Shown: one piece after another, positions 15,201 through 36,030 of the stretch
Layout: each line of letters starts with the position of its first letter
How positions within the stretch are numbered: the stretch's first letter is position 1
Assembly (NCBI GenBank): GCA_937951315.1
Contig: CALFCG010000284.1
Location: 1 to 38,330 of the forward strand
Direction of reading: 5' to 3'
Source: an uncultured cyanobacterium
Lineage (GTDB): Bacteria > Cyanobacteriota > Cyanobacteriia > Thermosynechococcales > Thermosynechococcaceae
Length of the DNA stretch: 38,330 nucleotides
Position numbers and translations under genes: made by a program
The notes under the pieces: generated by a model
What the model was told of the DNA's origin: nothing
Seen by the model: only the letters and a program-made list of their open reading frames with translations
Database searches by the model: none

Positions 15201-16016
15201 CTAATCTCGGGCAGCTAAGGCTTGCGATCGCAAATAAGCAGCTTGTACTGCCTCAATCAATGCCGACCGAAATCCAAATTTTTCTAAGGTTCTGACACCC
15301 GCGATCGTTGTTCCACCAGGGCTCGTGACCTGATCTTTCAGTTGAGCCGTGTGCAATTCCGATTGGGCCAATAACGTCGCTGTACCTTGCACTGTTTGCA
15401 ATGCAAGCTTCCCTGCAATCGCTCTGGGAAGGCCTGCTGCAACACCACCGTCGGTGAGGGCCTCAATTGCGATCGCTACATAGGCTGGTCCTGATCCGGA
15501 GAGTCCCGTAACTGCATCCATCATGGAATCTGGCACCCTCACCACATCACCGACCGCTTGAAACAGCTGTTCGGTTAATGTGACATGATCATCATTAGCA
15601 GAGCAACCGATGGCTAGAGCGGTTATGCCTTCTCCCACTGTCGCAGGCGTATTTGGCATCGCCCGAATCACCGGGTGTCCCTTAAATGCAGACTCAAGCT
15701 GCTCCAACTGCACCCCAGCCAAAATAGAAATGACCAGAGCTGAAGATCCAAGCTGCAGCTGTTGAGCTACAGAAGGGAAAACCTGTGGCTTGGTTGCTAG
15801 CAATACGACGTTTGCTGCTACAACAGACTGATTGTCAAGCGATGACTGTACTTTGTAAGTCTCTCTCCAGTAACTCAAGCGTTCTGGAGAGACATCACAA
15901 ACCAAAATATCTTGGGCGCTATAGAGCTCTTGGGCTATAAGACGAGACAGAATTGCCTCAGCCATTACGCCACCACCAATAACGCCTAGTTTGATGCTCA
16001 CTGTAGACTCACCCAT
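15201..16016 (-). CDS. proC: Pyrroline-5-carboxylate reductase
   Basis: ProC makes proline from pyrroline-5-carboxylate with NAD(P)H. The 271-residue protein has the Rossmann start LGVIGGGVMAEAIL, the RAMPNTPATVGEG substrate loop and the signature GLSGSGPAYVAIAIEALTDGGVAAGL, ending with DQVTSPGGTTIAGVRTLEKFGFRSALIEAV. Length is normal. It starts 42 bases after sepF on the same strand, a neighbourhood common to cyanobacteria and Gram-positive bacteria. Confidence 0.96.
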   Translation of the reverse strand: MGESTVSIKLGVIGGGVMAEAILSRLIAQELYSAQDILVCDVSPERLSYWRETYKVQSSLDNQSVVAANVVLLATKPQVFPSVAQQLQLGSSALVISILAGVQLEQLESAFKGHPVIRAMPNTPATVGEGITALAIGCSANDDHVTLTEQLFQAVGDVVRVPDSMMDAVTGLSGSGPAYVAIAIEALTDGGVAAGLPRAIAGKLALQTVQGTATLLAQSELHTAQLKDQVTSPGGTTIAGVRTLEKFGFRSALIEAVQAAYLRSQALAARD

Positions 16017-16058
16017 CGCTCAGAGAACTGACAAACATCTGAGATGAGTCTCAACAAA

Positions 16059-16643
16059 TTACTGAGCAATCTGATTTAGAGCTGTTGGCTCTGTTTGATA
16101 GGAAGACTGAGTTGGGCGATTGTGGGGTTGAGGAGCCTCATGGACAACGCCAAACTGAGTGCTGACCTGAACGCAGTTTGGTGTGAACAAGAAGATGCTG
16201 TCACCCACACGCTCTTGGTGGCCATCAATTGTGTATGTGGCACCTGCAACAAAGTCAACCGCGCGCTGAGCCTGAGCAGGATCCATCATTGTTAGATTCA
16301 AGACCACTGACTTCCGCTCACGGAGAGCCTGGATGACTTGAGGCATCTCTTCAAAGGCTTGAGGTTCCATCACAAGGACTTCAGTCGCAGAACCCCAAAA
16401 ACGATTGGCTCCAGGCATTCCGACAACATTGTTGAGATTAGTGCTGCTGTTCATCTCGACCCCTTGTGTGATTTCAGGTTGGTTGCTGAGTGGCTCTTGG
16501 ACAGGCCCGTTCTGTATGGATTCTGGCGCATAAAGATCAGCGAAATCTTCACCCTGAATCTCATCGTATTCGCCGTACTCCTCATAACCTTCTGCATCAG
16601 GCATGCCGACAAACTCTTTCAATTTTCCCAACAAAGTACTCAC
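16059..16643 (-). CDS. sepF: Cell division protein SepF (Cdv2)
   Basis: SepF binds FtsZ and anchors the Z ring to the membrane. The 194-residue protein has the N-terminal amphipathic helix [14 protein letters not shown], an acidic linker ([17 protein letters not shown]), and the C-terminal polymerisation domain from about residue 85 ([29 protein letters not shown], then [16 protein letters not shown]). The start codon is GTG at 16643 and has no clear ribosome-binding sequence. The N-terminal helix supports this start. A short inverted repeat GTAGGT-T-ACCTAC lies 113 bases upstream. Confidence 0.95.
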
Positions 16644-17123
16644 AATTTAGGCTCCATCGTAGACAGTGGTTTGCTGAAATAAACTCTTTCAAAGTCGAAC
16701 GCAATCGCGGATGACTTAAGTGGTAGGGGTCTTTACAACCAAGTATTGAGATTGAGTAGGTTACCTACCTTAGCCCAAAGCCTCAGCAGGGAAAACGTTT
16801 ACTAAACTTATCAAGTTAACCTTGACAAACAGCAATGATCAATATCTGGAAAAAGAATAAACAGTTAATGATCAATAATCTGAAAAAAGTAAAATTTTCA
16901 AGTTTGAATTGTACAGTAAAAGCCTGGATTGACTATAGGCTTTGCTTCATTGTAAGCAAACTTCATGCTTCTGTTGAGTAAAATCAAGAAAAGTAAGGAA
17001 GTAGCATCGCCGAAGGTATGTGGAAAGGATGTCACCTTTGGTTGCATTTAACAAGGGCTAGTTCAATTTATTTAAGAAAAATATTGGTTTTAGGGTCTGA
17101 GCAATAAGCTTTGGACCCGAAGA
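16644..17123. other. Intergenic region between pipY and sepF
   Basis: This 480-base gap holds the sepF leader. It includes GTAGGT-T-ACCTAC at 16756-16768, an imperfect direct repeat (AATGATCAATATCTGG at 16834 and AATGATCAATAATCTG at 16867, 33 bases apart), and two adjacent small hairpins at 16919-16943 and 16942-16959. I see no protein-coding frame with similarity. A small RNA is possible but not shown. Confidence 0.5.
16919..16943 (-). terminator. Possible terminator of pipX-pipY
   Basis: Read on the minus strand, AAAGCCT and AGGCTTT form a 7-base stem over 11 bases, followed by TTTTACTG. It lies about 180 bases beyond the pipY stop. A second hairpin TTGCTT/AAGCAA sits next to it at 16942-16959. 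The U-tract is short, so this is tentative. Confidence 0.35.
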
Positions 17124-17804
17124 TTAACGATCCCCGAATAGAGAGCGGCCTACCCGCACCATCGTTGCCCCGGCTTGGATCGCCCATTGAAAATCGCCAG
17201 ACATGCCCATTGAGAGCTCCTGTAGGTTTAGGGCGTGATCAGTCTGCGCTGTGATTTCTTGGGCAAGTGTGTTTATTCCTTCGAATGCCTTCAGCTTCTG
17301 GGGCTCGCTCAACCCGAGAGGCAAAATAGTCATTAGTCCCTGAATGTCTAAGCTTTTACATTCCAAGAGTCCAACTAGATCTTGTTTTAACTCAGAGACA
17401 GACCAGCCATACTTACTGGGATCGTCAAGCATTTTGACCTGTAGGCATAGCTTTGGTCTGTGAGTTTGATTGATCGCTAATTGATCTAAACGGCGGGCAA
17501 GGGACAAGCTATCTACAGAGTGAATCCAAGTACATAGCTCAATGGCCCGCTTTGCTTTGTTGCGCTGCAGATGTCCAATGAAGTGCCAAGTAATATCGGA
17601 TAAATCCTTAAGCTCAGATTGTTTAGCCTCTAATTCTTGGATGCGGCTTTCTCCAAAATCTCTGATCCCCACCTGATAAGCCTGCCGAATTAAAGGCACA
17701 GAAATCTTTTTTGTGACTGCAATTAGCTTTGTCTGTGGGGGTAATTGCTGTGTGACCTTTTCAATGCGTTCTGCAACCGTTAAACCTCTTTCAGGATGGG
17801 TCAT
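17124..17804 (-). CDS. pipY: PLP homeostasis protein PipY (YggS/COG0325 family)
   Basis: The 226-residue protein binds pyridoxal phosphate and buffers vitamin B6 and amino-acid pools; it has no known catalytic turnover. The PLP lysine is in TKLIAVTKK (about residues 24-32), followed by IRDFGESRIQE, WHFIGHLQRNKAKRAI and the C-terminal LSMGMSGDFQWAIQAGATMVRVGRSLFG. Its ATG overlaps the pipX stop by ATGA, the standard cyanobacterial pipX-pipY operon with tight translational coupling. Confidence 0.96.
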   Translation of the reverse strand: MTHPERGLTVAERIEKVTQQLPPQTKLIAVTKKISVPLIRQAYQVGIRDFGESRIQELEAKQSELKDLSDITWHFIGHLQRNKAKRAIELCTWIHSVDSLSLARRLDQLAINQTHRPKLCLQVKMLDDPSKYGWSVSELKQDLVGLLECKSLDIQGLMTILPLGLSEPQKLKAFEGINTLAQEITAQTDHALNLQELSMGMSGDFQWAIQAGATMVRVGRSLFGDR

Positions 17805-18070
17805 TGGAATGTTTGTTGATGAATCGTTCTGAGTTCCTTATAGTCCTCTGGTGAACCAGACCGCCTCAACATCCTCAGTCGACCTTCAACGATAATTCTG
17901 GCTTCATTCCGGCTGACTGCTTGGAATTCAACTTCCTGTTGATCAGTACAAACAATAAAAAATAAGCGCTGTGCATACAACGTTGTATAGAGGATTCGGT
18001 GCGGTTCAATCAGACACAAGCTGAACAGCAGTCCAAAACTTGGATGGCTCAGATACGTTTCGTTGATCAT
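17801..18070 (-). CDS. pipX: PipX, NtcA coactivator and PII partner
   Basis: PipX switches between binding NtcA (activating nitrogen-starvation genes) and PII under nitrogen excess. The 89-residue protein has the Tudor-like N-terminal domain with GLLFSLCLIEPHRILYTTLYAQRLFFIV and two C-terminal helices (SRNEARIIVEGRLRMLRRSGSPEDYKEL). The length is exactly typical. No GTA-N8-TAC NtcA site is visible in the 185 bases upstream; a TATACT hexamer on the minus strand (18153-18158) might be its -10 element. Confidence 0.96.
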   Translation of the reverse strand: MINETYLSHPSFGLLFSLCLIEPHRILYTTLYAQRLFFIVCTDQQEVEFQAVSRNEARIIVEGRLRMLRRSGSPEDYKELRTIHQQTFQ

Positions 18071-18255
18071 GTGTTGTCATCAAGAACTGGGATATGAACC
18101 CCCGCAGAATGTCTGGATAGATTGCTAACAGGAAAATATGGACTGAGAAAAGAGTATAAAAGACTGCAACTCATGATGAGAGTGAAATCCTGATAAGTTG
18201 GACTTATTTTTGTCAAAAGACAAGACGAAATTAATTATACTGGAAACTCGGAAAT

Positions 18256-19647
18256 CTATATATGGCCTGTCATTTGACGTAATGCAATCAGTTGAGCTTG
18301 TGCCTTGTGCAGCGATTCCTGCCATTCCTTTTGAGGGTTGCTATCGGCAACAATTCCTGCTCCGACTTGACCCCAAATCTGCACCAATTGCTTCTGAGAT
18401 GAGGAAAATGTTGCTTGAGGTACCACTAGGAGAGTGCGAATTAAGATATTCAAGTCAAGGTGACCTCTGAAATCTATATATCCACATGATCCATAAAATA
18501 GACTTCGTCTCACGGGTTCTAGCTTCTCAATGATCTCCATACAGCGGACTTTAGGGCAGCCCGTAATCGTGCCGCCAGGAAATACAGCATGAATCAAGTC
18601 AACGACATCATTTTCGGGTGCTAACGTGCCGATAATATTGCTCACCAGGTGCATTACATGGCTGTAGGATTCAATTGTGAGTAGCTCATCTACTTTGACT
18701 GATCCCCACTGGCATACTCGTCCAAGATCGTTCCGCTCTAGATCGACAAGCATGATGTGTTCTGCCTGCTCTTTTTGATTGGTCGATAGTTCTCGAGCAA
18801 GGCGGTGATCTAGCAATGCGGTTGCTCCCCGAGCACGCGTTCCTGCAATGGGCCGGACCTGCGCTTTGGGGCCTTGAAGTTGCACGAGTCTCTCTGGAGA
18901 GCAACTCACAACTGCTCCCCAGGGCGTTTGCCAATAACTTGCGAAGGGCGATGGATTGATTTGGTGAAGATGGCGATAAAGATTCCAGGGATCGAGCCGG
19001 GCTTCGGCCATAAATCGTGTAGAAAGATTGGCTTGAAAGATATCACCCGCCTGGATATGTTCCTGTGCCAGCTCCACCATCTTTACGTAGTCTGCTTGGT
19101 TCGTGAGCATCAAACTTGCTTTTAGCAGGTCTCCGCTGTCGGGAGCCTCTTGCCACTCTGAGCAGAGCAGAAGGGCTTCTAGATCATCCAGCTGGTCCGA
19201 GTGTGTGGTGGCCAACCATAACTCTTGACGGTGGTGATCTAGAACGGCAAAGTTCTCAGGTTCATACCAATAGGCAACTGGAAAAGGCAGGGGATCTCTA
19301 TTGATCAGAGGGAGAGACTCGATTTCCCAAGCCAAATCATACCCAAACCAACCCAGCCAGCCTCCGAGAAAGGGAAGTGATGCAGAAGGAGGGTGACTGT
19401 CAGAGGATTCCTGTTGTCTCTCTCGGAGCCAATGAAGGATAGTACCGATTTGAGGTGTCCAAAGCTGAGGTTGTTGGTTGATCGTCCGAGGAGGGCCAGC
19501 GCAGATAGAATAACGACTCAGCGAAGAGGAAGGACTTTCTAGTAACGTTGCAATATCAAAATTTCGAAACAGGGCCGCAAATATCATTGAGCCCGTTCGC
19601 TTGGCGAGGGGTTGCGATCGCCAATGCCAGGGGAGAAGTTGACCCAT
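18256..19647 (-). CDS. pabB: Aminodeoxychorismate/anthranilate synthase component I
   Basis: The 463-residue enzyme belongs to the chorismate-utilising family. It contains AGDIFQANLSTRF, SCSPERLVQL, the PIAGTRARG motif, EHIMLVDLERNDLGRV and GGTITGCPKVRCMEIIEKLEP near the end. With glutamine amidotransferase component II it would make 4-amino-4-deoxychorismate for folate, or anthranilate for tryptophan. The motif has Ala where E. coli PabB carries a catalytic Lys (PIKGT), so the pabB label rests on overall form and length and not on that residue. It lies 22 bases downstream of the EcfT gene on the same strand. Confidence 0.8.
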   Translation of the reverse strand: MGQLLPWHWRSQPLAKRTGSMIFAALFRNFDIATLLESPSSSLSRYSICAGPPRTINQQPQLWTPQIGTILHWLRERQQESSDSHPPSASLPFLGGWLGWFGYDLAWEIESLPLINRDPLPFPVAYWYEPENFAVLDHHRQELWLATTHSDQLDDLEALLLCSEWQEAPDSGDLLKASLMLTNQADYVKMVELAQEHIQAGDIFQANLSTRFMAEARLDPWNLYRHLHQINPSPFASYWQTPWGAVVSCSPERLVQLQGPKAQVRPIAGTRARGATALLDHRLARELSTNQKEQAEHIMLVDLERNDLGRVCQWGSVKVDELLTIESYSHVMHLVSNIIGTLAPENDVVDLIHAVFPGGTITGCPKVRCMEIIEKLEPVRRSLFYGSCGYIDFRGHLDLNILIRTLLVVPQATFSSSQKQLVQIWGQVGAGIVADSNPQKEWQESLHKAQAQLIALRQMTGHI

Positions 19648-19669
19648 TTAATTCATCGTGCCAGGAGAA

Positions 19670-20623
19670 CTATGTATCAATGCCCATCCAAAATCGCACA
19701 CCCCAAACCACCAAGACGAGAAATAAAGCTACCCAGTCTCGCAAATGAACCTTTAACTGACTCCATTGAACATTGTGTTGATTGGGGGTTGTAAATCCAC
19801 GGACCTGCATTGCACTTGCAATTTGTTCCGCGCGGAGAAAGAGGTTCTCGAGTAAACGATCGGCTAATTGTAGCCAGATCTGCGAAGCTCCCTTCACGCC
19901 TATTTTCTTCCAGTTAATTGCACGCGTACGAACTGATCGCACTAAATTTTGTACTTCTTCTAGGACGAGGGGGATGAAGCGGAGGGCCAATGTTAAAGTC
20001 AGCGTTAATTCTGTAACAGGGACACGCCAACGTCGTAATGGCTTTAGCAACAGCTCTAATGTTGTTGTGATCTCTTCAGGGGCTGTTGTTAACAGGTATA
20101 GAGTTGTTCCATAAATCAGCGTGAACAGCAAGCTTCCTATCCTGAATCCGAGCTCCAGAGATCTTCTCGTAACCTTGACGGGCCCTATCTCAAAAAGAAT
20201 GTAGCGATAGGGGTGTAGTTTAAGGGCCTCGAGGACTGATGGGGTGAGGTGGGGAGCTGCAGGCGTCGTTTCTAACGCTTGAAGTGCAGGTGCGCCAGTG
20301 GCAAAGGTGAGTTCTTGGGTGGGAAGTCGAGGTTGATGCTGGGCTGCTAAGCCATCTGGCATTAAGGTTGTTACCGCAAACACGATGAAACATAGGGCTG
20401 AGAGCAGGCCCATTTGTTGACGCCAGACTCGGAGTGGAACGGCACTACAGGTCAGTAAAAAGAGTAGAACAACGAGTATTAATCGCCATACAAAGCTTGC
20501 TAGTAGTGGAGTTAGCAAAAAGGTCATGAGCCACACAAGCTTGACCCTTGGATCAAGACGATGAAGCCAGGTTATGGGCTCCTCAAGGTATGTACCTATC
20601 GGTAACGATCGGAGTAGATCCAT
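19670..20623 (-). CDS. Energy-coupling factor transporter transmembrane protein EcfT (CbiQ family)
   Basis: EcfT is the membrane scaffold that couples two ATPases to a substrate-binding S component for uptake of vitamins or metals. The 317-residue protein has N-terminal hydrophobic segments (LVWLMTFLLTPLLASFVWRLILVVLLFLL), a central soluble loop, more membrane segments, and the C-terminal coupling helices with the Ala-Arg motifs SVRTRAINW and ASAMQVRGF. It is longer than many EcfT (about 265) because of an extra loop around residues 95-150. No EcfA ATPase or S component lies in the window, so its partners must be elsewhere. Confidence 0.88.
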   Translation of the reverse strand: MDLLRSLPIGTYLEEPITWLHRLDPRVKLVWLMTFLLTPLLASFVWRLILVVLLFLLTCSAVPLRVWRQQMGLLSALCFIVFAVTTLMPDGLAAQHQPRLPTQELTFATGAPALQALETTPAAPHLTPSVLEALKLHPYRYILFEIGPVKVTRRSLELGFRIGSLLFTLIYGTTLYLLTTAPEEITTTLELLLKPLRRWRVPVTELTLTLTLALRFIPLVLEEVQNLVRSVRTRAINWKKIGVKGASQIWLQLADRLLENLFLRAEQIASAMQVRGFTTPNQHNVQWSQLKVHLRDWVALFLVLVVWGVRFWMGIDT

Positions 20624-20761
20624 CCAAGGTTGTCCGGAAAATAGTAATCTCGTTCAAGCGTAACTAGAATTGGTTGTTAGTGGTTGGATTTTTGAGACAA
20701 TTTAGTCCACCTTGGATACCGTTCCTTCCCGACATCAAGAATCGGTCATAACTGCAGAGTC

Positions 20762-21343
20762 GTGATTGTGCACCAATATATTCTGTTTCACAAGCCCTAT
20801 GGTGTTCTCTGTCAATTTAGCGATCAACAGGGGCGAGTCACCCTCAAAGATTACATTTCAGTGCCCGATGTCTATCCGGTAGGGCGATTGGATCGAGATA
20901 GTGAAGGTTTGCTATTGTTGACCAACCATGGCTGGTTACAGCATCGTCTTAGTGATCCTCGTTTTTCTCATCCCCGAACCTATTGGGTGCAGGTGGAACG
21001 CATCCCAACACCTTATGACTTAAAACCATTGGGCCAGGGGATCAAAATTCAAAACTATCTGACTCGCCCAGCTCAAGCCAAGCTTCTCGCGACTGCACCT
21101 GAGCTGCCTCCCCGTGATCCACCCATTCGTGTGCGTCAGACTGTACCTACAGCTTGGCTTGAGATCACGCTCACTGAGGGACGCAATCGTCAGGTTCGCC
21201 GGATGACAGCTGCAATTGGTTATCCAACGCTACGTCTTATCAGGGTGGCCATTGCTTCTCTTTCTTTGGGAGAGCTGCTTCCTGGTCAGTGGAGAAATCT
21301 GGAGCCAGAAGAAATTCTGCAGCTCCGCTCCCAAGTGGAATAG
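20762..21343 (+). CDS. Pseudouridine synthase, RsuA/RluE family
   Basis: The 193-residue protein converts a specific rRNA uridine to pseudouridine. It starts [14 protein letters not shown] and has the catalytic Asp in [19 protein letters not shown], then TYWVQVER and [25 protein letters not shown]. It lacks an N-terminal S4 domain, as RluE (23S U2457) does, so RluE is the closest assignment. The start is GTG at 20762. It is divergent from the EcfT gene. Confidence 0.9.
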
Positions 21344-21349
21344 CTTCAT

Positions 21350-21379
21350 TTCAATCTTTCGAGCAAAGTAAAGATTGAA
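21350..21379. terminator. Perfect 10-base hairpin after the pseudouridine synthase gene
   Basis: TTCAATCTTT (21350-21359) pairs with AAAGATTGAA (21370-21379) over 10 bases, starting six bases after the stop codon. A T-rich run TTATTTTTT follows about 13 bases later (21393-21401). The stem is AU-rich, so it may be a weak terminator or an RNA-stabilising 3' structure. Confidence 0.45.
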
Positions 21380-21531
21380 TCTATGTGGGAGCTTATTTTT
21401 TCGCTCTCCAATCTTGTTGGCATGATTATATCTTTAATGCGTTTGGCCCCTGGTCTTTTTTGGTGATGGGGGTTGCTGTAGTCTACAGAAGAAAACTGTT
21501 AATCTACGGATGGTAAAAAGCACGAGAACCT

Positions 21532-22485
21532 ATGAGTGATCAACTTCCATTAGAAGCGACTCCTGAAGCACTAGGTTCTGGTACCTCGATTGATTCTCCC
21601 AACTTGGAGATTATGGATGAAGAGGATATTACCGAAGTCTTGCCTAGCCAAATCATCGAGGCGGAGGCTGTAGGACAAACAGATGTTGGCAGGGAGCGCC
21701 GGCACAATGAAGATTTCTTTGTGATTAACCAGCAGGTGATCCAGCAAAGTAATCCTAATCGTCATGCTGTCTCATTGAGAGGCCTCTATGTTCTCTGTGA
21801 CGGAATGGGAGGACATGCCAAGGGAGAGGTTGCCAGTGCTCTAGCGACGGAGACGCTGGTTCAGCAGGTTAATCAAAGATGGCACAGTAAGTTGCCGAGC
21901 CGCGATAGCCTTCTAGAGGCGATTTTAGCTGCAAACCAGGCGATATATGTTGCGAATGAAGGCAAGGGAGCTCGATCGAGTCATGATCGAATGGGAACCA
22001 CAATGGTTCTGACCTTGATTCAAGATACTCAGGTTCATTTAGCCCATGTTGGGGATAGTCGAATTTATGCTTTAACGGCAAGCCAAGGCCTAGAGCAATT
22101 GACGGTTGATCACGAGGTGGGCCAGCAAGAAATTAAGAGGGGAATAGAGCCCAGTATTGCCTACGGACGGTCTGATGCTTATCAGTTGACGCAAGCTTTA
22201 GGTCCTCGTCAGAATCGAGAGATTTCACCCGAGATCACCTCTCTCACGATTGCGGAAGACACGTTACTCTTATTGTGCTCTGACGGATTGACCGATCATG
22301 AGTTGCTCAGACGACACTGCTCTTCGCATCTAATGCCAATTTTTGATGATCGCTTGAGTTTGCGGCAAGGTGTGAGTCAGCTCGTTGATCTCGCCAACAA
22401 ATATAATGGGCACGATAATGTAACGGTTTTGGCGATTCGTATAAAGGTGCATCCTCAACAGCAGAATATTCGTTCGGGTCGCTGA
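21532..22485 (+). CDS. PP2C-family Ser/Thr protein phosphatase
   Basis: This metal-dependent phosphatase has the bacterial PP2C motifs DVGRERRHNEDFF (51-63), CDGMGGHAKGE (89-99), HDRMGTTMVL, LAHVGDSRIYAL, LLCSDGLTDHE and GHDNVTVLAI, so all metal-binding Asp positions are present. The 317 residues include an acidic N-terminal extension of about 45 residues. No membrane segment is seen. It is 32 bases upstream of an FHA/pseudokinase gene on the same strand, so the two probably form a signalling pair; the substrate is unknown. Confidence 0.93.
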   Translation: MSDQLPLEATPEALGSGTSIDSPNLEIMDEEDITEVLPSQIIEAEAVGQTDVGRERRHNEDFFVINQQVIQQSNPNRHAVSLRGLYVLCDGMGGHAKGEVASALATETLVQQVNQRWHSKLPSRDSLLEAILAANQAIYVANEGKGARSSHDRMGTTMVLTLIQDTQVHLAHVGDSRIYALTASQGLEQLTVDHEVGQQEIKRGIEPSIAYGRSDAYQLTQALGPRQNREISPEITSLTIAEDTLLLLCSDGLTDHELLRRHCSSHLMPIFDDRLSLRQGVSQLVDLANKYNGHDNVTVLAIRIKVHPQQQNIRSGR

Positions 22486-22517
22486 TCTCTTCTACCTACT
22501 TTTTTACTATTGCAAAT

Positions 22518-23726
22518 GTGATTACGTTAACACTTCTCGGTACTGACTTTGAGCATCAGCAATGGCAGTTTGAAGACTATATAAGTATCAAAGTTGGAAG
22601 AGCCTCTGATAACGATGTACTACTGACTGATGAGCAAGTCTCTCGCTATCATGTAGAGCTGAGTCCAAATAACCCTGGTTCGTCTGATGAGGAATGGAAA
22701 ATTCAGGGGCTTGGAACCAATGGAACGCTTGTTAATGGCAAGTTTATAACTCAGGGGGATGTCTCCCACGGTGATCTGATTCAACTGGGTTTATCGGGGC
22801 CGATGTTGAAGTTTGAACAAACTTTTCAAAAACCTTTGCCTGTTTCCAACATAGAAGTTGATGTTCTTCGCTCACCATCCTTAGAAGATGGATCAGACTC
22901 TTCTGTTCTTTGTAACCATGAGAACAATGAACCCAGTAATCGGTTCTGTATCCACTGTGGTGAACCGCTTACTAGGTTAGGGTTAGAGAGACTGGGGCAC
23001 TATCAGGTGATCCAGACATTAGAGTCCCAGGAGCGAGAGGTTTCTTTTCTTGTTCGAGATATTCGCCAGGGGGGAGCTTTGTGTGTTCTCAGGCGGTTTT
23101 GGCCTGAGGTTTATACACAGGCGCACGATCGCTTTGAGCAGGAAATTCAATGGCTAGGAGCATTGAATCATAATGGTTTAGCTCGGGTCGTTGATTCTTT
23201 CTGTGAGGAGCCTTACCGGTATGTGGTCATGGAGAAAATCTCTGGGCTGACTTTAGAAGAGCGGGTGCTAAAGGAGGAACTTAATGTGTCAATGGCTATC
23301 AAAATACTGCTAGCTATTTGCAATAGTCTCCGCTCCCTCCACTGTCACAATCCACCCATCATTCATCGCAACCTTGCACCAAAGAACATCCTTATTCGTT
23401 CACAGGAACAGAGTGTGGTTCTGATCAACTTCGGCAGTCTCAGAGCTTCTGGGCTAGGGCTGTTGACACCTCCCTCCGTAACTGTTCAATCAGATCTTTA
23501 CAGATTGGGCACTGTCTTGATATTTATGTTGACCGGAAGAAATCCCAGCCAGTATTTTAATGTGCAGCGATTGAGTCACCACATTGAATGGACTGCAGTA
23601 CCGCAAGTGCCCCCTTCACTCCATTCGATTATTGAAAGAATGACACATCCTAATCTTCAACATCGATATCGTACCGTTGAAGAACTCATAAGTATGCTAG
23701 AAGACTTTCAGCTAAAACTGTCCTGA
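22518..23726 (+). CDS. FHA / zinc-ribbon / Ser-Thr pseudokinase protein
   Basis: The 402-residue protein has three parts. An FHA phosphothreonine-binding domain occupies about 1-100 (KVGRASDNDVLL, VSRYHVEL, LGTNGTLVNG). A zinc knuckle follows at 132-149 (LCNHENN...FCIHCGEPL). A protein-kinase fold spans about 160-400. The kinase lacks its catalytic residues: HRD is HRN (283-285, Asp to Asn), DFG is NFG (304-306), the KxxN motif is ALAPKN, and the VAIK lysine is replaced (CVLRR, 189-193). The F-helix SDLYRLGTVLIFMLTGR is kept, so the fold is intact. It is best read as a phospho-dependent scaffold acting with the adjacent PP2C. The start is GTG at 22518. Confidence 0.88.
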   Translation: MITLTLLGTDFEHQQWQFEDYISIKVGRASDNDVLLTDEQVSRYHVELSPNNPGSSDEEWKIQGLGTNGTLVNGKFITQGDVSHGDLIQLGLSGPMLKFEQTFQKPLPVSNIEVDVLRSPSLEDGSDSSVLCNHENNEPSNRFCIHCGEPLTRLGLERLGHYQVIQTLESQEREVSFLVRDIRQGGALCVLRRFWPEVYTQAHDRFEQEIQWLGALNHNGLARVVDSFCEEPYRYVVMEKISGLTLEERVLKEELNVSMAIKILLAICNSLRSLHCHNPPIIHRNLAPKNILIRSQEQSVVLINFGSLRASGLGLLTPPSVTVQSDLYRLGTVLIFMLTGRNPSQYFNVQRLSHHIEWTAVPQVPPSLHSIIERMTHPNLQHRYRTVEELISMLEDFQLKLS

Positions 23727-23740
23727 TATCTTTTCTCTGC

Positions 23741-26005
23741 TTAATCCTTCAGGTGACCATTGGATTGAACAGCTACGTCATTGCCTGAGGATGAGTCATC
23801 AGTATCCTCATGATTTCTTTGGTCGTATGAATAGTAGTAAGCGCTATAGGACGGTTGCTGATCCGCTGTTACTCCATTTGCGATCACACCCAAGAGATTA
23901 TGACCGGGTTGTTTGAGGAGGTCTTTTGATAAAGCAACGCTTCCGGTTTCAGCAACGCCAGGACGGACGACCAGCAGGAGCCCATCCGCCATCCGGCTCA
24001 GGGTGAGTGTGTCGGCCGCTGCGCTTAAGGGGGGCGAGTCAATGATTACATAGCGATATCGCTGGGAGAACTCTTTCAGCAAGTCAGCCATGTGATCTGA
24101 GTCAATTAATGCAGATGGATTGGGGGGTAATACTCCTGCTGTTAGGACATCTACATTGGGTTCACCTTCTTGAATTGCTTCATCTAGAGTTGCTTCACCC
24201 ACGAGTACATCACTGAGGCCAATGCGATTTAGTATTTCCCAAGTTCGATGCTGTACCGGACGACGCAGGTCAGCATCGACTAATAATACTTTTTGACCTA
24301 ATTCTGCCATCGCCATTGCTAAGTTTGCCGATGCGGTTGATTTGCCTTCAGAGGGAATGCCACTGGTCATGACAATCACTTTGAGCGGTTTGTCAGAATT
24401 AAGATACTTGAGATTAGACTGCACCATCCTCACCGCTTCGCTAGGGGGTGAGTTGGGGGTGTCTCGAACGTACAGCTCTCGTTTTACATCTGCGGAGACG
24501 CTCGCTCCCTTCGCTTTGATCTTGCTCTGTACGCCTTCAATGGCAGGAATTACGCCCAACATTGTGTAATCAGAAAACAGGGCTTTGATGTCTTCTAAAG
24601 TTTTCACTGATTTATCGCGGGCATCGAGCAGGAGTGCGACCCCAAAGGCCAGTAAGCTTCCTAAAACGAAGCCTGAGAAGATATACAGCAACTTTCGAGG
24701 AGCAATGGGTTCATCGGGAACCAATGCGGGAGACAGAATCCTAGCATTACCCAGGTTTTGCTGCTCTAGTACTTGAATCTCTTGTAATTTTCTGATCAGG
24801 TTTGCATAAATTTCTTGAGATATTTCAACATCTCTTACGAGCTGACGAAGTTGTTTCTCAAGGGCGGGAATTGCTGCTGTTCGCTGTTGGAAGTTAGCTT
24901 GCGTGTTGCTCAGAGCTAAGGCCACTTGTTCTGCGGCTAAGCGTTCTGATTCAAAGCGTACAAGTTCACTGGTTGCTCGCTGTTGCAGTTCACCAACCTG
25001 GAGTTGTCCCGTTCCAGAGGGGGATGATGCGGCCCCTAATGTTTCTCCCACTCGAGTTTGGAGCGTTGATCTTAGAACGGCTGCTTGATCTTGTAAGTCT
25101 TGTATGATTGGGTTCTCTGGGGTTAAGCGTGTGCCTTCCAATGCCAATTGAGATTCGACTTCTTGCAACTTTTGTAAGACGACTTGAACTCCGGGAGATT
25201 GACTGAGGGTTGTACTCGCTATGGATTGTTGCTTATCTATGCCTAACTGTTGGCGCAGAGAGTTTGATTGTGTTTGAGCCGTGATGGCTCTTCCCTGTGC
25301 TTCATTAATTTTTTCTGCAAGTTTGATAACCGCTTCGACTGCAACTTCAGCTTCTTTATCAATGGATACAACTTGATTTGTTTCTTTGAAGCGGCGGAGC
25401 TGTTCTTCTAGTTTTTCAATTTTCTCTCTTGTTTTAGGCAGTTCTTGATCAATGTATTCTCTGGCTGAGGATGCTTCTAGCCGATTGACGCGTAGGTTAT
25501 CGGCTAAGTAAATCTGCATCAATGTGTTGATAACCAAGGCTGCTTCTGAGGGATCCTCTGATTTGTAAGATAGCTCAATGACGTCACCGGCTCTAGCTTT
25601 CTTAACCGTCAGTTGTTCTTCAAAATCGAATATTCTGAGTGCTTCACCATTGTCGTCCGTTAGCTTTAGCTGTTTTAAGACGGCCTGTAGCACTGGTACG
25701 GATAAAATAGTCTCGATTTCTGTATCAAGGGGACTGCTATCACCCGATAAGGGACTGATCCCACCCAGATCAAGTTCTGTTAAGCCAGATTGAGACTCTT
25801 TAATGCGCAGTGTGCCCTGTGACTGATATATAGAGGGCTTCAAGAATGCAGCCAGGGTCGCAGTCAGGAACACGAGTAGGAAGACGGCTGAAGCCGGTAG
25901 CCAGCGCCTTTTTAAAACAAGCCAATATTTACCTAAATCAATGACTTCTTCTTCAAGCTGATACTCTGCTGGCATAGGACTTACGGTATTACAGTTGCGA
26001 CTCAA
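23741..26005 (-). CDS. wzc: Polysaccharide co-polymerase and tyrosine autokinase (Wzc-like)
   Basis: The 754-residue inner-membrane protein controls polysaccharide chain length and export. It has a Wzz-type domain with membrane segments near residues 36-56 and 440-460, flanking a long coiled coil (about 190-430). The cytosolic BY-kinase domain follows, with Walker A SGIPSEGKST (about 550), Walker A' VLLVDADLRRP and Walker B YVIIDSPP. The Tyr-rich cluster YSAYYYSY near the C terminus is the likely autophosphorylation site. The frame opens with TTG at 26005; an ATG ten codons later (25975) is an alternative. It is the last gene of the leftward polysaccharide cluster and ends 14 bases from the convergent FHA gene. 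Confidence 0.93.
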   Translation of the reverse strand: MSRNCNTVSPMPAEYQLEEEVIDLGKYWLVLKRRWLPASAVFLLVFLTATLAAFLKPSIYQSQGTLRIKESQSGLTELDLGGISPLSGDSSPLDTEIETILSVPVLQAVLKQLKLTDDNGEALRIFDFEEQLTVKKARAGDVIELSYKSEDPSEAALVINTLMQIYLADNLRVNRLEASSAREYIDQELPKTREKIEKLEEQLRRFKETNQVVSIDKEAEVAVEAVIKLAEKINEAQGRAITAQTQSNSLRQQLGIDKQQSIASTTLSQSPGVQVVLQKLQEVESQLALEGTRLTPENPIIQDLQDQAAVLRSTLQTRVGETLGAASSPSGTGQLQVGELQQRATSELVRFESERLAAEQVALALSNTQANFQQRTAAIPALEKQLRQLVRDVEISQEIYANLIRKLQEIQVLEQQNLGNARILSPALVPDEPIAPRKLLYIFSGFVLGSLLAFGVALLLDARDKSVKTLEDIKALFSDYTMLGVIPAIEGVQSKIKAKGASVSADVKRELYVRDTPNSPPSEAVRMVQSNLKYLNSDKPLKVIVMTSGIPSEGKSTASANLAMAMAELGQKVLLVDADLRRPVQHRTWEILNRIGLSDVLVGEATLDEAIQEGEPNVDVLTAGVLPPNPSALIDSDHMADLLKEFSQRYRYVIIDSPPLSAAADTLTLSRMADGLLLVVRPGVAETGSVALSKDLLKQPGHNLLGVIANGVTADQQPSYSAYYYSYDQRNHEDTDDSSSGNDVAVQSNGHLKD

Positions 26006-26285
26006 CCCACTCTCTCACTTTGGGTAAAACGAGCGATGAGCCAAGGTGAGTTAACGATTGCTTGGTGAAGTACTGGTGTGATTCAGGTCTTAATTCTTAC
26101 CAAGTTGATACTGACTGGCCCTTAGTTCAGAGATTTTAGCTCATTTGGGGGCTGTCGGGGAGGATGTTCTATCAAGGATGAATATTACATTTGCGATCGC
26201 AAGCACAAATTTTGCATCTTATGTATAGCAGATCAAACCATCCTGGATGATCATCGCTAGAAGATAAAGATATCTGCGCTCAATT

Positions 26286-26882
26286 CTAGCTGATCACAAC
26301 TCGGCGCAGCGTCTCTAGGATAAGACGGATATCAAAGAATACGCTGGATTGCCTGATGTAAGCCTGATTCAGCTCCAATTTCTTTGGCATAATTTCCTCG
26401 ATGTAAGTTTTCTCTGAATTTGAAGCCTGAGCGAGGAGTTCATTCTCATTCCGAAACTCGATTGAGGCTAAATCAGTGATTCCGGGAAGCACATTTAAAA
26501 CTTGTCGCTGTTCATCAGAATAAAGCTTGACGTATCTTGGGACTTCGGGTCGAGGACCTACGAAGCTCATCTCACCTTTCAACACATTTATCAGTTGTGG
26601 CAGCTCATCTAGTTTGTACTTTCTCAGGAAAGTGCCGACAGAGGTGATCCGTGCATCATTGCTGAGGGTGATTTGCGTTCCCCGCGCTTCCGCGTCGGTA
26701 ATCATCGTTCTAAATTTATAAATCTTGAACTCATGGCCAAACTGGCCCACACGGCTCTGGCGGAAAAAAACAGGTCCTTGATCATCAAGCTTGATACTGA
26801 TGGCAATAATTGCAAATAAAGGGGAAAGAAAAAACAGACCGATTAAAGCAAAGAACAGATCAAAGACTCGCTTCGCCACCAT
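26286..26882 (-). CDS. Sugar-1-phosphate transferase, PglC-type (monotopic)
   Basis: This enzyme transfers a sugar-1-phosphate to undecaprenyl phosphate to begin glycan assembly. The 198-residue protein has one re-entrant N-terminal helix ([25 protein letters not shown]), the basic [18 protein letters not shown] stretch, [28 protein letters not shown] with the catalytic Asp-Glu pair, and the [13 protein letters not shown] ending. It lacks the extra membrane domains of WcaJ/WbaP, so it is the short PglC type. Its ATG shares one base with the stop of the aminotransferase gene (TAATG), so the two are coupled. Confidence 0.93.
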
Positions 26883-28033
26883 TAGATCAGAATCTCCTTG
26901 ACGGCATTAATGACCCACTCTTGGTCTTGGTCTGTCATCTTCGTATAAATGGGTAAGCTGATGGCGTGCTGGTATGTTGAGAGAGAGCAGGGGAAATCAT
27001 CCGGGACTAAGCGGTAGGTCTCGCGCCAGTAAGGATGGAGATGCAGGGGAATATAGTGAATGCTACAGCCAATGCCTTTATCTATCATCTTCTGGATAAA
27101 TTCATCTCTTGTGATATGGAGGCCAGAATCTAAGCGGATTATGTATAAATGCCACGAATGTGTATCACCGGTTAGAGGGTGTGCTGGCAGGGTCAAGGGC
27201 AAGCCCTCAAATGCAGCATCATAACGAGAAGCTAATTCAGTACGCCGCTTTTGAAACCGCCAGGCTTTACCAAGTTGTGGGATGCCTAGGGAAGCAGCTA
27301 AGTCCGTCATGTTGTATTTGTAACCTGGGGCTACAATCTCGTAATACCAAGATGGTTTCGTCGACGTATAACGATCGAAAGCATCACGGTTAATCCCATG
27401 CAGCCGCATAATTCGAGCCCGATCTGCTAGTTCTGGGTTGCGGGTGACAAGCATTCCACCTTCGCCCGTCGTAATTGTTTTGGTTGCATAAAAGCTGTAG
27501 ATCGTTGCTTCACTATCGAGTGAACCAATGAGCTGTTGATGGTAGGTAGTGGGCAGGGCGTGGGCTGCATCTTCGATGACCTTGAGACTGTACTGGCGAG
27601 CAATGGCTAAAATCTTGTCCATCTCACAGGCGAGTCCCGCTAAATGCACAGGTATGATTGCCTTGGTGCGATCTGAGATAGCAGCCTCTATCTGCGTAAC
27701 ATCAATATTTAGCGTGTCAGGATGGATATCGACAAATACAGGATCTGCACCCAAGTAGCGTATGACCTCTGCTGTTGCAGTGAACGTGTGAACGGTGGTG
27801 ATCACCTCATCCCCAGGGCCAATGCCAATCGCTTCTAAGGCTAAATGAAGACCTGCCGTAGCAGAATTGACGGCAACAACTTGAACATCAGCCCCTAAAA
27901 AATCTTTGAACTCCTGTTCAAATTCTTTCGTCTTGGGTCCTGTGGTCAGCCAACCAGAACGAAGGGATTCAACAACCTGATCAATTTCTTGTTCACCAAT
28001 GTCAGGTAAAGCAAAAGGAATAAAGCGGTTCAT
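26882..28033 (-). CDS. PLP-dependent sugar aminotransferase (DegT/DnrJ/EryC1 family)
   Basis: The 383-residue enzyme aminates a keto nucleotide sugar using pyridoxal phosphate. Visible features are [20 protein letters not shown] near the N terminus, [12 protein letters not shown], and [21 protein letters not shown] with the PLP lysine. The C-terminal LYIIRLD and [18 protein letters not shown] belong to the same family. Together with the coupled PglC-type transferase it suggests an amino-sugar at the reducing end of one glycan, as in PglE/PglC systems; the matching 4,6-dehydratase is not adjacent. Confidence 0.92.
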
Positions 28034-28398
28034 TAATAACCTGAAAGAAATTAGTTTATTAACTGCCTAACAGTTTTGACTTGAAAGCTATAGATTTACT
28101 TATGACTCCATCAATTGCTTTAGTCTCTAAACTTTAATCCCTTTAAGAAAAACTCTGGCGAACAGCCTCTGTGAGTTTACGCGTATCCCAAGGATTCCCC
28201 GCAAAAATATTTTTTAACTAAAGTTGGCCTAGCTGAATCTAAGGCTCCCCCATCTCTATCGGTAGCATAGGATCCTATTATACGGACTTTTCGGGAACAC
28301 GTTGGGATCTAGGTTACAACGCTTACCCCAGATTTATTATGGTTTTCCAGTCTCTGTATACTTGCTGAGTGTGACTGGTGATATCATCTCAACTTAAA
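28034..28398. other. Intergenic region splitting the polysaccharide cluster
   Basis: The 365-base AT-rich gap lies between the WecA-type gene and the aminotransferase gene, both leftward. On the minus strand it contains a perfect TATAAT hexamer at 28277-28282. No coding frame with similarity is visible. It probably separates two transcription units. Confidence 0.5.
28277..28282 (-). promoter_or_regulatory. Possible -10 element for the aminotransferase unit
   Basis: TATAAT reads on the minus strand about 245 bases before the aminotransferase ATG. No TTGACA-like -35 is found at 16-18 bases, so this could be an activator-dependent promoter or a chance match. Confidence 0.3.
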
Positions 28399-29397
28399 TT
28401 AAGGCTCAATTTTATTCCTTTTCCAATTATGACTTTGGGTTTTATAGAGAAGATGAAATTCAAAAATACCAATAGCAATGGCTGAAAGAAAGAGACTGAT
28501 CCCTGCGCCTAAAAGACCAAAATAAGATATTAGGATTGTTAGTATAAATGTCATGAAAATGTAAGCGAAAGCGACTTGGTCATGGGACCATCCACCTTGA
28601 TGTAACCTTTGAAAGATGTGCTCACGATGCGCTTGAAAAATGTTTTTGTGCTGCAATAGACGACGGACAAGTGTGTAACTTGCATCGCCCGTAAGCGGTA
28701 GTGTAATTGCCAGGGCTGCCCAGGCTTGGGATGTATGATCTGCGTTACTCATTATTGAAATGGCAACGCTCGCCCCCAAAACAGTGCTGCCAGTATCTCC
28801 CATGAATATTTTGGCAGGAGACCAGTTCCACCAAAGAAATCCGACCAATGCCGCGACGAGCAACCACAATATGGGTTGGTTGAAAAAGAGAGCTAAAAAA
28901 CTGAGCTGAACGGCTGTGCAGCCAGCGACTAAGCCATCTAAGCCGTCCATGAAGTTGAAAAAATTAACGATAGCGGTGAAGCCAATGATCGTTAATAGTG
29001 TGGCGACGACTTGACCTGGAACGCCCAATGAGGTCAGCCACGGTTGAGGAAAAATGCCAAAGGAAAACGTGGCGATGGTCGCTGTTGTGAGCTGGACCAG
29101 GTAACGCAAGGATGCTGGCATGCCCCAAAGATCATCCAAGACCCCGACCAGAGCCAAGGGAATAAGCGTCAACCACATGGGTAAGAGTTGAGGGTCTGGC
29201 GTCTGTGTGAAGGTGGTTATGGCGCTGGTTACAGCAAATGCCAGCACAAAGCCAATGCCTCCCCCCCTGGGCGTTGGCTGAGTGTGGGAGCTACGGTCGT
29301 TGGGAGTATCGATCAGATATTTGGTCCGTTTGATCCCATAAACGCTAACAAGGCTAAGGATAAAAGAAGCTGAAATAAGTAAGATATCTAGGACCAT
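28399..29397 (-). CDS. Undecaprenyl-phosphate N-acetylaminosugar-1-phosphate transferase (WecA/WbpL-like, GT4-type PNPT)
   Basis: This polytopic enzyme (332 residues, about ten membrane helices) loads an N-acetylamino sugar-1-phosphate onto undecaprenyl phosphate. It shows PRGGGIGFVLAF, the Asp pair in NFFNFMDGLDGL, the SPAKIFMGDTGSTVLG loop and the C-terminal HREHIFQRLHQGGWSH. It lies directly after the WbjF-type epimerase, the order seen in WbjF-WbpL pairs, so its substrate is probably a UDP-quinovosamine- or fucosamine-type sugar. The final residues are basic and cytosolic. Confidence 0.92.
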   Translation of the reverse strand: MVLDILLISASFILSLVSVYGIKRTKYLIDTPNDRSSHTQPTPRGGGIGFVLAFAVTSAITTFTQTPDPQLLPMWLTLIPLALVGVLDDLWGMPASLRYLVQLTTATIATFSFGIFPQPWLTSLGVPGQVVATLLTIIGFTAIVNFFNFMDGLDGLVAGCTAVQLSFLALFFNQPILWLLVAALVGFLWWNWSPAKIFMGDTGSTVLGASVAISIMSNADHTSQAWAALAITLPLTGDASYTLVRRLLQHKNIFQAHREHIFQRLHQGGWSHDQVAFAYIFMTFILTILISYFGLLGAGISLFLSAIAIGIFEFHLLYKTQSHNWKRNKIEP

Positions 29398-29426
29398 GAG
29401 TTCCCTGGCTAAGCATCTATTTTTGT

Positions 29427-30413
29427 TTAATTAAATAGAGTCTTTATTCCTTCTTCGAGAGAATAAGGAGCGGACCAATTTAGATGCGAATGAAGTTTGT
29501 GAATATCAACAGATAGAGAGCCAATTAATCGTTCGAGACTCTCTGAGTTGAGGCTAAAAGAACGACCTAAACTAGATTGGATCTGGTCTCCGAGTTTACC
29601 ACTTAGTCGTAGTAAATTGATGGGGACAGGGAAGAGTCTTAGGGATTTATTTCCGTATTGAGCGATATGGCGAATCAAATCGGGTGTGGATAGATCTTGG
29701 CCGTCACTGCATAGAAAAACTTGATTCTCGGCATTGCTATCGGTCAGCGTACGGAGAATAATGTCGACGAGGTTGCCCACATAAATAAAACTCCTTTGGT
29801 TGTGAATCGCACCCAAGGGAAGCGGGAGGCCAGAGTTGATCAGCTTAATCAGCCGCTCCATGTTCCCAGGGTTTCCCGCTCCATACACAAGGGTGGGGCG
29901 CAGGATGGTCCAGTTCATTTGGGTGTTTTGGGATAGCTGAGTTAAAGCTTGTTCCGCCTGCAGCTTGCTGCGTCCATAGGGGGTATCCGGTGTGCAGGGT
30001 GAATCCTCACTCAGTCGTTCCTTGCTAAGGGTCGTCATTGCGCCGATCGAGCTGATGAAGACGAAGTGTTTGACGCCTGCGTTGATACATTGCTTGGCTA
30101 GATTAGTTGTGCCCGCAGTATTGACCTGTAAAAAAGCGGCTTCTGGATCGGCAGAATCATCATTGAGTTGATGAGCACGGGCGGCCAGGTGAATAACAGT
30201 ATCAATATTTTGCAACGCATGTTGCCAGTCTGTTTCACCATCAATTGTTCCCACCTGAATGGGCGTGAGTGGAAGATCGCTCTCGAGGTTGTTTGTGGTT
30301 CGGAGGGCAGCTGTGATCTGCCAATTATCCTGGTGGAGAGCGGGAAGGAGATGGCGGCCCACAAAACCGGTTGCACCTGTCACTAGGACTGATTTACGTT
30401 GAATAGAGGTCAT
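29427..30413 (-). CDS. NAD-dependent nucleotide-sugar epimerase/dehydratase (WbjF/WbpV-like)
   Basis: The 328-residue extended SDR begins SVLVTGATGFVGRHLLPAL (cofactor loop), has the DTVIHLAARAHQL segment and the catalytic Tyr-Lys in TPYGRSKLQAEQAL. It resembles the reductases WbjF/WbpV/WbuJ that make the D-fucosamine or quinovosamine precursor paired with WbpL-type transferases. This pairing is seen here: the transferase gene starts 29 bases downstream. The exact stereochemistry cannot be read from sequence. Confidence 0.88.
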   Translation of the reverse strand: MTSIQRKSVLVTGATGFVGRHLLPALHQDNWQITAALRTTNNLESDLPLTPIQVGTIDGETDWQHALQNIDTVIHLAARAHQLNDDSADPEAAFLQVNTAGTTNLAKQCINAGVKHFVFISSIGAMTTLSKERLSEDSPCTPDTPYGRSKLQAEQALTQLSQNTQMNWTILRPTLVYGAGNPGNMERLIKLINSGLPLPLGAIHNQRSFIYVGNLVDIILRTLTDSNAENQVFLCSDGQDLSTPDLIRHIAQYGNKSLRLFPVPINLLRLSGKLGDQIQSSLGRSFSLNSESLERLIGSLSVDIHKLHSHLNWSAPYSLEEGIKTLFN

Positions 30414-30536
30414 AGCCCTGCCGGTTTGTGATTTCTAGTTGCAATAGTTCTGTCTTCACGGGGAAGTTTTCTGTGAATGGATGTTTTCGGGAGAGGACGT
30501 TGGGGGCTGTGAAGGGAGAAGGTAATAATTTCTTCT

Positions 30537-31439
30537 TTATGGCCAATATTTCTCAAGATCAGGCAAGCTATTTTTTAGGCGGCTGATACTGTTCTCGATT
30601 TTTCGGGTTGTCTCGAGATTCAAGTCCCCTCTGCCTATGTTCGAAGATTCTCCCTCTCTGTACAGGACTTTTTTGATTAACTTTGATCGATGTAACGTTG
30701 ATAGAAGACGGTAGAAGCCATATTTGCGCAGGAAATAGCTTGTCTTTGTGGCAATTTTCGCGAGTGTTCTTGATTTGGGTTGAATGGATGCGTTAACCAC
30801 TTGACCCGCGCTAGGGGGGACAAAGCTGGAATCCACACCCAAAAATGAATAAATTTCTTCGATCACTTGGAGATGATCTTGATTTAATCTCTCATAGATA
30901 AAAATATATATCTGTGATGAATCGAAGGCCTCGAGAAACGGTTGCATCCGCTCGGCCAGCAAGACAGACTCTAGTAAGGTCACTTGATCGGATTCAGCTA
31001 ACTGGTTTTGTTGAAGACGCTCTGAATATCCAGATCCCATAATGCTGCCAATGGGAGTCGCAAGAGCTGATTCGATGTCCTTAAAGACAAGTCCTCGGCG
31101 AATACCAAAGTTGTAGTAAGACGATAGGAGTGCGAATGGATCCCGGAGATTGATGATTAGCTTGATGTTCTTGTCATAGTTCTTGATCTTTTCCGGAATC
31201 GAGGCGTCGAGATAGTAATTGTTGGAAATCTCGCCCGCTGCCAATGTCTGACGGGATTCAAAATGGCTTTCGTACCATTGCTCACCCAATGCATAGTTGA
31301 TGTTAAAGAACTCCGTCTCTTTGACATTCGACATTGTGATGTCAGGATGGCTTCTAAAAACCTCTGCAAGCCAGCTTGTGGCACATCGACCGGGGCCGAT
31401 ATTGATAAATGTTGGCTTGGCGACTGAATTCTCTTGCAT
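30537..31439 (-). CDS. Sulfotransferase domain protein
   Basis: This 300-residue protein has the fold of PAPS-dependent sulfotransferases. The 5'-phosphosulfate loop reads FINIGPGRCATSWLAEVFRSHP (residues 10-31; Arg occupies the usual Lys position). The 3'-phosphate site is KLIINLRDPFALLSSYYNFG with the conserved Arg and Ser. The later IYIFIYERLNQDHLQVIEEIYSFLGVD matches the family end. It most likely sulfates a sugar of the glycan made by the cluster, in the cytosol. It is leftward and 56 bases after the WbuB-like gene. Confidence 0.87.
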   Translation of the reverse strand: MQENSVAKPTFINIGPGRCATSWLAEVFRSHPDITMSNVKETEFFNINYALGEQWYESHFESRQTLAAGEISNNYYLDASIPEKIKNYDKNIKLIINLRDPFALLSSYYNFGIRRGLVFKDIESALATPIGSIMGSGYSERLQQNQLAESDQVTLLESVLLAERMQPFLEAFDSSQIYIFIYERLNQDHLQVIEEIYSFLGVDSSFVPPSAGQVVNASIQPKSRTLAKIATKTSYFLRKYGFYRLLSTLHRSKLIKKVLYREGESSNIGRGDLNLETTRKIENSISRLKNSLPDLEKYWP

Positions 31440-31495
31440 AGGGTCTAAAAAGTGGCTTAAAAAGAGCTGAAGAAGCGGTGTTGAGGCTGACGGCT

Positions 31496-32710: not shown

Positions 32711-32729
32711 ATTTATTCGATGAACCTCG

Positions 32730-35014: not shown

Positions 35015-36030
35015 GACCGATAACCCTGCAATGCGTCTTTAATCTCTGGCAATCGGAGCAGAACCTCTTTCAACTCGGCCTTGGAAAGTTGATAGGTGTT
35101 GTGAGAATGATAGTCTTCGATGTTCGTTTCTTCAACGGCACCTTCAGTAAAGTACTTGCTGTAATTGAGATCGCGGTCATCAATCGAGACACGGTAATAG
35201 TCCCCCATATCTTTAGAACGGCGAAGTTCTTCTGCTGTGACTAGGGTTTCGTAGAGCTTCTCACCATGACGGATCCCAATAACTTTGACCGGATTATCCG
35301 CTTCAAATAAATCCAACAGGCATTCAACCAAAAGCTGAACGGTGCAGGCTGGCGCTTTCTTAATAAAAATGTCTCCCTGCCTGGCATTCTCAAAGGCAAA
35401 GCTGACGAGATCAATGGCATCACTCAACGACAGCATAAAGCGCGTCATGGAAGCTTCTGTAATTGTGATGGGTTGGCCTGCTTTGATTTGCCGAATAAAA
35501 AGAGGAATCACGGAACCTCTCGAGCACATCACATTCCCATATCGCACACAGGATAGGGTGGTGTCACCCTCGCCAAGCTGACGACTGGCAGCCTGAACCA
35601 CCTTTTCCATCATGGCTTTAGAGAGTCCCATTGCATTAATGGGCATGACGGCTTTATCGGTGCTCAGACAAACGACGCTTTTTACGTCGGCTTCAATGGC
35701 AGCATCAATCACATTCTGACTGCCCAAAATATTAGTTTTGACGGATTCGAGCGGGAAAAACTCACAGGAGGGGACCTGCTTTAAAGCCGCTGCATGGAAA
35801 ACGAGATTGACGCCCTTCATCGCCTTGTCAACGGACTTGCGATCTCGAATATCGCCAATAAAGAATTTTAATTCGGGTCTACTGTAGGCAATCCGCATTT
35901 CTTCCTGTTTTGCTTCGTCACGGCTAAAGATGCGGATCTCTTTATAGCCTTGCTGCAACAGGGAGTTAACCATTGTCTTTCCAAAAGATCCAGTTCCTCC
36001 GGAAATGAGAACAGTAGAGTTTATAGACAT
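35011..36030 (-). CDS. capE: UDP-GlcNAc 4,6-dehydratase/3,5-epimerase (CapE/FnlA/WbjB)
   Basis: This first enzyme of UDP-L-FucNAc synthesis is 339 residues long. It has the Rossmann loop VLISGGTGSFGKTMVNSLL, VFHAAALKQVPSCEFFP, the active segment STDKAVMPINAMGLSKAMMEK with Met replacing the usual SDR Tyr (MxxxK, normal for this family), RYGNVMCSRGSVIPLF and the RHGEKLYETLVTAEE tail. It lies 61 bases downstream of the polymerase gene and is tightly coupled to capF. Confidence 0.95.
   Translation of the reverse strand: MSINSTVLISGGTGSFGKTMVNSLLQQGYKEIRIFSRDEAKQEEMRIAYSRPELKFFIGDIRDRKSVDKAMKGVNLVFHAAALKQVPSCEFFPLESVKTNILGSQNVIDAAIEADVKSVVCLSTDKAVMPINAMGLSKAMMEKVVQAASRQLGEGDTTLSCVRYGNVMCSRGSVIPLFIRQIKAGQPITITEASMTRFMLSLSDAIDLVSFAFENARQGDIFIKKAPACTVQLLVECLLDLFEADNPVKVIGIRHGEKLYETLVTAEELRRSKDMGDYYRVSIDDRDLNYSKYFTEGAVEETNIEDYHSHNTYQLSKAELKEVLLRLPEIKDALQGYRS

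Follow-up and report, generated by a model that had tools for sequence, protein, structure and literature searches.

Across cyanobacteria, a PP2C-type phosphatase gene stands next to the gene of an FHA-zinc-ribbon kinase with intact catalytic motifs. In the stretch of DNA analyzed here (the window, 38,330 nucleotides from an uncultured cyanobacterium), the positional orthologue of this kinase has lost its catalytic residues and has retained its FHA domain, its zinc ribbon and an intact reading frame beside an intact PP2C gene. The best reading of this pattern, to which we give a probability of roughly 0.45, is that the sequence encodes a pseudokinase kept as a phosphothreonine reader, which might act together with the PP2C.

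The phosphatase and its degenerate neighbour

The PP2C-type Ser/Thr phosphatase (21532..22485, plus strand) has 317 residues and matches the PP2C Pfam profile with an E-value of 2e-14. Its catalytic and metal motifs are complete (RHNED, DGMGG, GTT, HVGDSR, DH, ALGP, CSDGL, NGHDNVT), and it retains 84 of 89 near-invariant residues. The match to PRK14559 (NCBIfam NF011149; E 2.5e-136, above cut-off) runs from position 356 to 638 of the 642 in the profile: this is the C-terminal catalytic part only, and the N-terminal ~355 positions are missing. In full-length relatives this N-terminal half, which most orthologues have, bears a double zinc ribbon. Short forms of the phosphatase are also found in the loci L034, L038, L108 and L162; in the first three of these lineages the kinase is intact.

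Thirty-two base pairs after the PP2C stop, a GTG start opens the gene for a protein of 402 residues (22518..23726, plus strand), which combines an FHA domain, a zinc ribbon and a kinase fold, in this order, in one chain. The FHA domain (residues 24-91; 22587..22790, plus strand; Pfam E 7e-15) retains the phosphothreonine-binding residues GR, S-R-x-H and NGT..NG, by which it is predicted to be a phosphothreonine reader. It is followed by a single zinc ribbon of the form C-x-H ... C-x2-C (residues 132-151; 22905..22975, plus strand), whose Pfam match is weak and under its cut-off and whose ligands were assigned from the family alignment, and by the pseudokinase domain (22998..23723, plus strand; protein kinase Pfam match, E 2e-17). 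Domain searches found no further domain in the 402 residues, including no COG3899 fusion. The family profile covers the protein over positions 1-393 of 394 (E 1e-150, with the window sequence included among its 12 rows), and a single-sequence search finds relatives at 34-38% identity across most of its length.

An earlier sequence-only reading of this DNA had reported that the VAIK Lys, the HRD Asp and the DFG Asp are lost at once. This observation is confirmed (VLK has become VLR, HRDxKPxN has become HRNLAPKN and DFG has become NFG) but understated, as more kinase motifs are gone than were listed. The catalytic-loop Lys has disappeared together with the HRD Asp, the Gly loop is destroyed (GxGGMG to ESQERE), and the activation segment is 13 residues shorter and lacks the APE motif. 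From the DFG Gly to the αF Asp there are 19 residues; in every other complete member of the family in the alignment this span is 28-33. The αC Glu, the catalytic-loop Asn and the αF Asp survive, and no substitution that would compensate for the lost catalytic residues was recognized. Of the features that mark a Hanks-type Ser/Thr kinase as active, the Gly loop, the VAIK Lys, the HRD Asp, the DFG Asp and APE are all gone, and by every motif the domain is predicted to be a non-catalytic pseudokinase. An AlphaFold prediction of the protein with the relative L029 gave a mean pLDDT of 50 and a pTM of 0.31, a quality too low to be of use, and the pseudokinase call is one made from sequence.

The orthologous operon and the uneven decay of its kinase

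How does this locus compare to others? Upstream of the PP2C gene lies an RsuA-type pseudouridine synthase gene (20762..21343, plus strand), the syntenic marker upstream of PP2C in orthologous loci, and divergently to it TrpE/PabB-like and CbiQ-like (ECF T component) genes (18256..20623, minus strand), found in the same order in L034, L040 and L041. The arrangement TrpE-CbiQ-(divergent)-RsuA-PP2C-FHA kinase is common to the window and several family members, including Acaryochloris, and identifies the window protein as a positional orthologue. On the other side, an exopolysaccharide-type cluster occupies 23741-37498 on the minus strand (Wzz/BY-kinase, sugar transferase, DegT aminotransferase, glycosyltransferases, UDP-GlcNAc 2-epimerase). 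No Rfam regulatory RNA matched within 16000-26500, and a promoter and terminator scan gave results near chance.

The family profile matches in 89 of 242 cyanobacterial genomes, or 111 of 390 with a stricter cut-off, counts that also cover paralogues and some cases in which only the zinc-ribbon kinase part matched; motifs and neighbours were read in about 110 loci. Once duplicates and loci with broken frames had been removed, 71 other loci had a PRK14559-like PP2C on the same strand, immediately or a short way upstream of an FHA kinase. All 71 kinases have intact Lys, αC Glu, HRD, Asn, DFG and PE, and the window is alone among the 72 loci in having a dead kinase beside the PP2C. As a separate observation, L082, L085, L086 and L094 carry a three-gene module in which a zinc-ribbon-FHA gene immediately precedes the PP2C and the live FHA kinase.

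The intact state of these orthologues, together with the positional orthology, marks the losses in the window as derived: judged by the motifs, a kinase that is normally active has died in this particular lineage. The sequence-only reading had held that its proposal would be refuted by orthologues with intact HRD and DFG, as marks of a lone defective copy, and such orthologues are what all 71 loci contain. Its proposal of a non-catalytic reader keeps its footing in the lost motifs, the preserved FHA domain, the intact frame and the intact, adjacent PP2C, yet the state belongs to this lineage and not to the pair. Likewise, the combination it did not know as described is new only in its dead version. 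The live pair is an old and widespread cyanobacterial operon, and FHA kinases were already catalogued in 2005 and 2007.

The decay is strongly uneven. Of the residues with an invariance of 95% or more among intact orthologues, here called near-invariant, the window protein keeps 15 of 15 in the FHA domain, which the earlier reading had called well kept, and 7 of 7 in the zinc ribbon, but 31 of 61 in the kinase domain and a single one of eight in the activation segment. A loss of 30/61 versus 0/22 (Fisher p 7e-6) is not chance, and intact relatives retain nearly all such residues in both parts alike. The kinase-domain branch of the window protein (2.22 changes per site) is the longest of the family, with its FHA branch (1.62) the fourth longest, and the end branch of the whole protein measures 2.92 versus a median of 0.21. 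The terminal kinase/FHA branch ratio has a median of 1.90 in degenerate rows and 0.53 in intact ones, with a Mann-Whitney p of 1e-7 that is too small given that the rows are related; the window's own ratio of 1.37 is matched by a single intact kinase, L034 (1.38).

Despite the long branch, the 402 codons contain no stop; a random sequence of the same composition would be expected to have about 22. Codon-position GC in the kinase half resembles that of neighbouring genes, with periodicity kept and indels in frame. The missing stops and the normal codon GC argue that the protein is maintained, which does not imply any particular role. A search of 29 genomes of the window's family yielded no closer relative suited to a dN/dS test, and the contigs of its own genome contain this single locus.

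Separable parts and recurrent degeneration

Within the window's family the pair occurs in several states. Acaryochloris-like genomes have the PP2C with a live kinase, and in genomes of 2.4-2.8 Mb the kinase is live but its gene and that of the PP2C lie apart. RsuA-PP2C is retained with no recognizable kinase adjoining in G010 (L162), G003 (L163; the contig ends less than 700 bp from the PP2C, and the genome has no family match above paralogue level) and G013 (L164), and G006 (L165) retains a diverged PP2C with no FHA kinase adjoining. Near-invariant PP2C residues number 88/89 in L162 and 84/89 in L163. To judge by these four relatives, the phosphatase does not in general depend on the FHA kinase. 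Two further genomes, G001 and G004 (74% complete), carry an FHA kinase that is degenerate and lack an orthologous PP2C, so that the parts are separable in both directions; an intact PP2C with a dead kinase is found in the window alone. Broken frames were seen in the FHA-kinase genes of two Acaryochloris-group assemblies, L029 and L024 (G017) and L200 (G244), whose kinase motifs are intact; either faulty assembly or recent damage could account for them. G244, with stops in both PP2C and kinase, was left out of the counts, since its kinase motifs are intact and the interruptions resemble frameshifts.

Such uneven decay is also found elsewhere in the family. L031 and L032, which form one clade (100/99), keep 22 of 22 residues in FHA domain and zinc ribbon and 32/61 and 42/61 in the kinase. 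The AU test does not reject a loss common to them and the window (p 0.31), and the TrpE tree does not separate the alternatives, so that the kinase may have been lost once or twice.

A paralogous FHA clade (100/99) likewise combines a well-kept FHA domain with a degenerate kinase domain. It has a member, L030, in the window's genome (L030:4514-7391, equivalent to G000:C212:15513-18390, minus strand), and degenerate FHA kinases of this clade are spread class-wide in cyanobacteria (L030, L111-L123, L229-L235). Among the 21 loci read, a zinc-ribbon-FHA gene lies upstream in 14 and a 6-phosphogluconolactonase (pgl) gene is found in 11, with a PP2C nearby in none. About eight of the 21 members clearly lack the catalytic or the DFG Asp. 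The idea that all members are pseudokinases was rejected: L111, L229 and L230 keep Lys, αC Glu, DFG and the catalytic Asp (HQD/HCD), and may be active non-RD kinases. L105, a live kinase that is sister to the clade, has the order pgl - ZnR-FHA - PP2C - kinase, and four other live loci show ZnR-FHA - PP2C - kinase. These arrangements, of which that of L105 looks ancestral, suggest that a full module, from which the PP2C was later lost, is the probable origin of the clade.

Taken together, a natural series becomes visible. The PP2C occurs with a live kinase, with a dead one (the window) or by itself; a dead kinase also occurs where the PP2C is missing; and the pgl/ZnR-FHA clade is a degenerate paralogous group. 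Bacterial pseudokinases are little studied, and this series lets one ask what FHA kinases do besides phosphorylating. It also bears on how pseudokinases arise, whether as selected readers or on the way to loss of the gene.

Possible reader, possible relic and relation to known systems

What might the dead protein do? In the reading we prefer, its FHA domain would bind a client phosphorylated by another Hanks kinase of the genome. Four such kinases have intact motifs (L003, L005, L007, L008), so phosphothreonine could come from these. The dead kinase fold would then offer a surface for contacts with other proteins. The enzyme likeliest to be affected would be the PP2C encoded beside it, to which the phospho-client would be brought. 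We infer each of these elements, from phosphothreonine binding and the client to direct PP2C contact and the way in which the effect would go. The reader role is favoured by the uneven retention, the intact frame on a long branch, and the same pattern in L031/L032 and the L030 clade; it is weakened by the separable parts, the fast evolution of the FHA domain and the branch ratio matched by an intact kinase. A bolder version appears unlikely to us: the pseudokinase would be a phosphothreonine-dependent targeting subunit of the PP2C, its former antagonist, and cyanobacterial FHA kinases would repeatedly have turned into FHA pseudokinases. If true, an opposing kinase/PP2C pair would have become a one-way phosphatase complex, with FHA-bound clients handed to the PP2C.

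The main rival, that the gene is in the course of being lost, owes its weight to sister lineages in which this loss is complete: G003, G010 and G013 have kept RsuA-PP2C after the kinase gene had gone, as has G006 with a diverged PP2C. A dispensable kinase would decay in its core under relaxed selection, with FHA domain and zinc ribbon lagging behind and no selected role. The long end branch agrees with this, as does the N-terminal zinc-ribbon half missing from the PP2C of the window and some relatives. Yet an unselected frame should be broken, and here stops are absent, indels are in frame and codon periodicity persists; nor would one expect a loss so strongly uneven, or its repetition in two other groups. 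We regard this decay as a serious possibility, though a doubtful one. Phosphothreonine reading could also work the other way, with the FHA protein shielding phosphothreonine from the PP2C or from another FHA reader, as a decoy that tunes signalling. Such a protector or competitor, which we consider rather improbable, would draw on the same data as the reader and on the presence of other FHA proteins in the genome, including L030 and its adjoining zinc-ribbon FHA protein, but these data fit recruitment equally.

Some proteins first named pseudokinases have proved active, and the surviving αC Glu, catalytic-loop Asn and αF Asp might be taken to suggest residual or non-canonical catalysis, by another Lys, metal-independent nucleotide binding or SelO-type transferase chemistry. 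With Gly loop, Lys, both catalytic Asp, catalytic-loop Lys and activation segment/APE all lost, and no compensating substitution, this is very improbable.

A search of the literature open without subscription found no report on the PP2C/FHA-kinase pair or on cyanobacterial FHA pseudokinases. Among the closest systems known are the cyanobacterial FHA-domain Ser/Thr kinases catalogued in 2005 (PMC1262709) and 2007 (PMC2176072), in which, in the available parts of both papers, tlr1128, alr0548, alr4954, Tery_0088 and others make up an early-recruited FHA cluster. These share with the window protein the FHA domain N-terminal to a Hanks kinase, the kept GR/SxxH/NG residues and a class-wide family. 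They are treated there as kinases, whereas the window protein lacks all catalytic motifs; neither PP2C pairing nor dead members are described in those parts. PRK14559, for its part, resembles the window PP2C in the catalytic half and differs in having the N-terminal zinc-ribbon half.

A review lists the bacterial pseudokinase families ActPs1-3, GLW, CP1, DYD and DLHK, which have lost one to three canonical motifs (PMC12599244). It contains no FHA-zinc-ribbon pseudokinase family and mentions FHA for MviN/FhaA only. CP1 pseudokinases occur in cyanobacteria and are linked to COG3899, a fusion that the window protein does not have. In mycobacteria, according to the available part of this review, the pseudokinase MviN is phosphorylated by PknB and then bound by a separate FHA protein, FhaA (PMC12599244). 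This resembles our case in its pairing of a bacterial pseudokinase with an FHA domain in a phosphorylation-dependent assembly; MviN and FhaA are, however, two proteins, and the window has both parts in one chain beside a phosphatase. In the kinase-kinase-phosphatase module KKP, too, a single operon encodes a PP2C together with a Hanks kinase that bears an FHA domain (PMC11341870). Its two kinases act jointly, the FHA domain lies on the C-terminal side of PfkB and the module was found on prophages, while the window has a single dead kinase with an N-terminal FHA domain at a conserved chromosomal locus.
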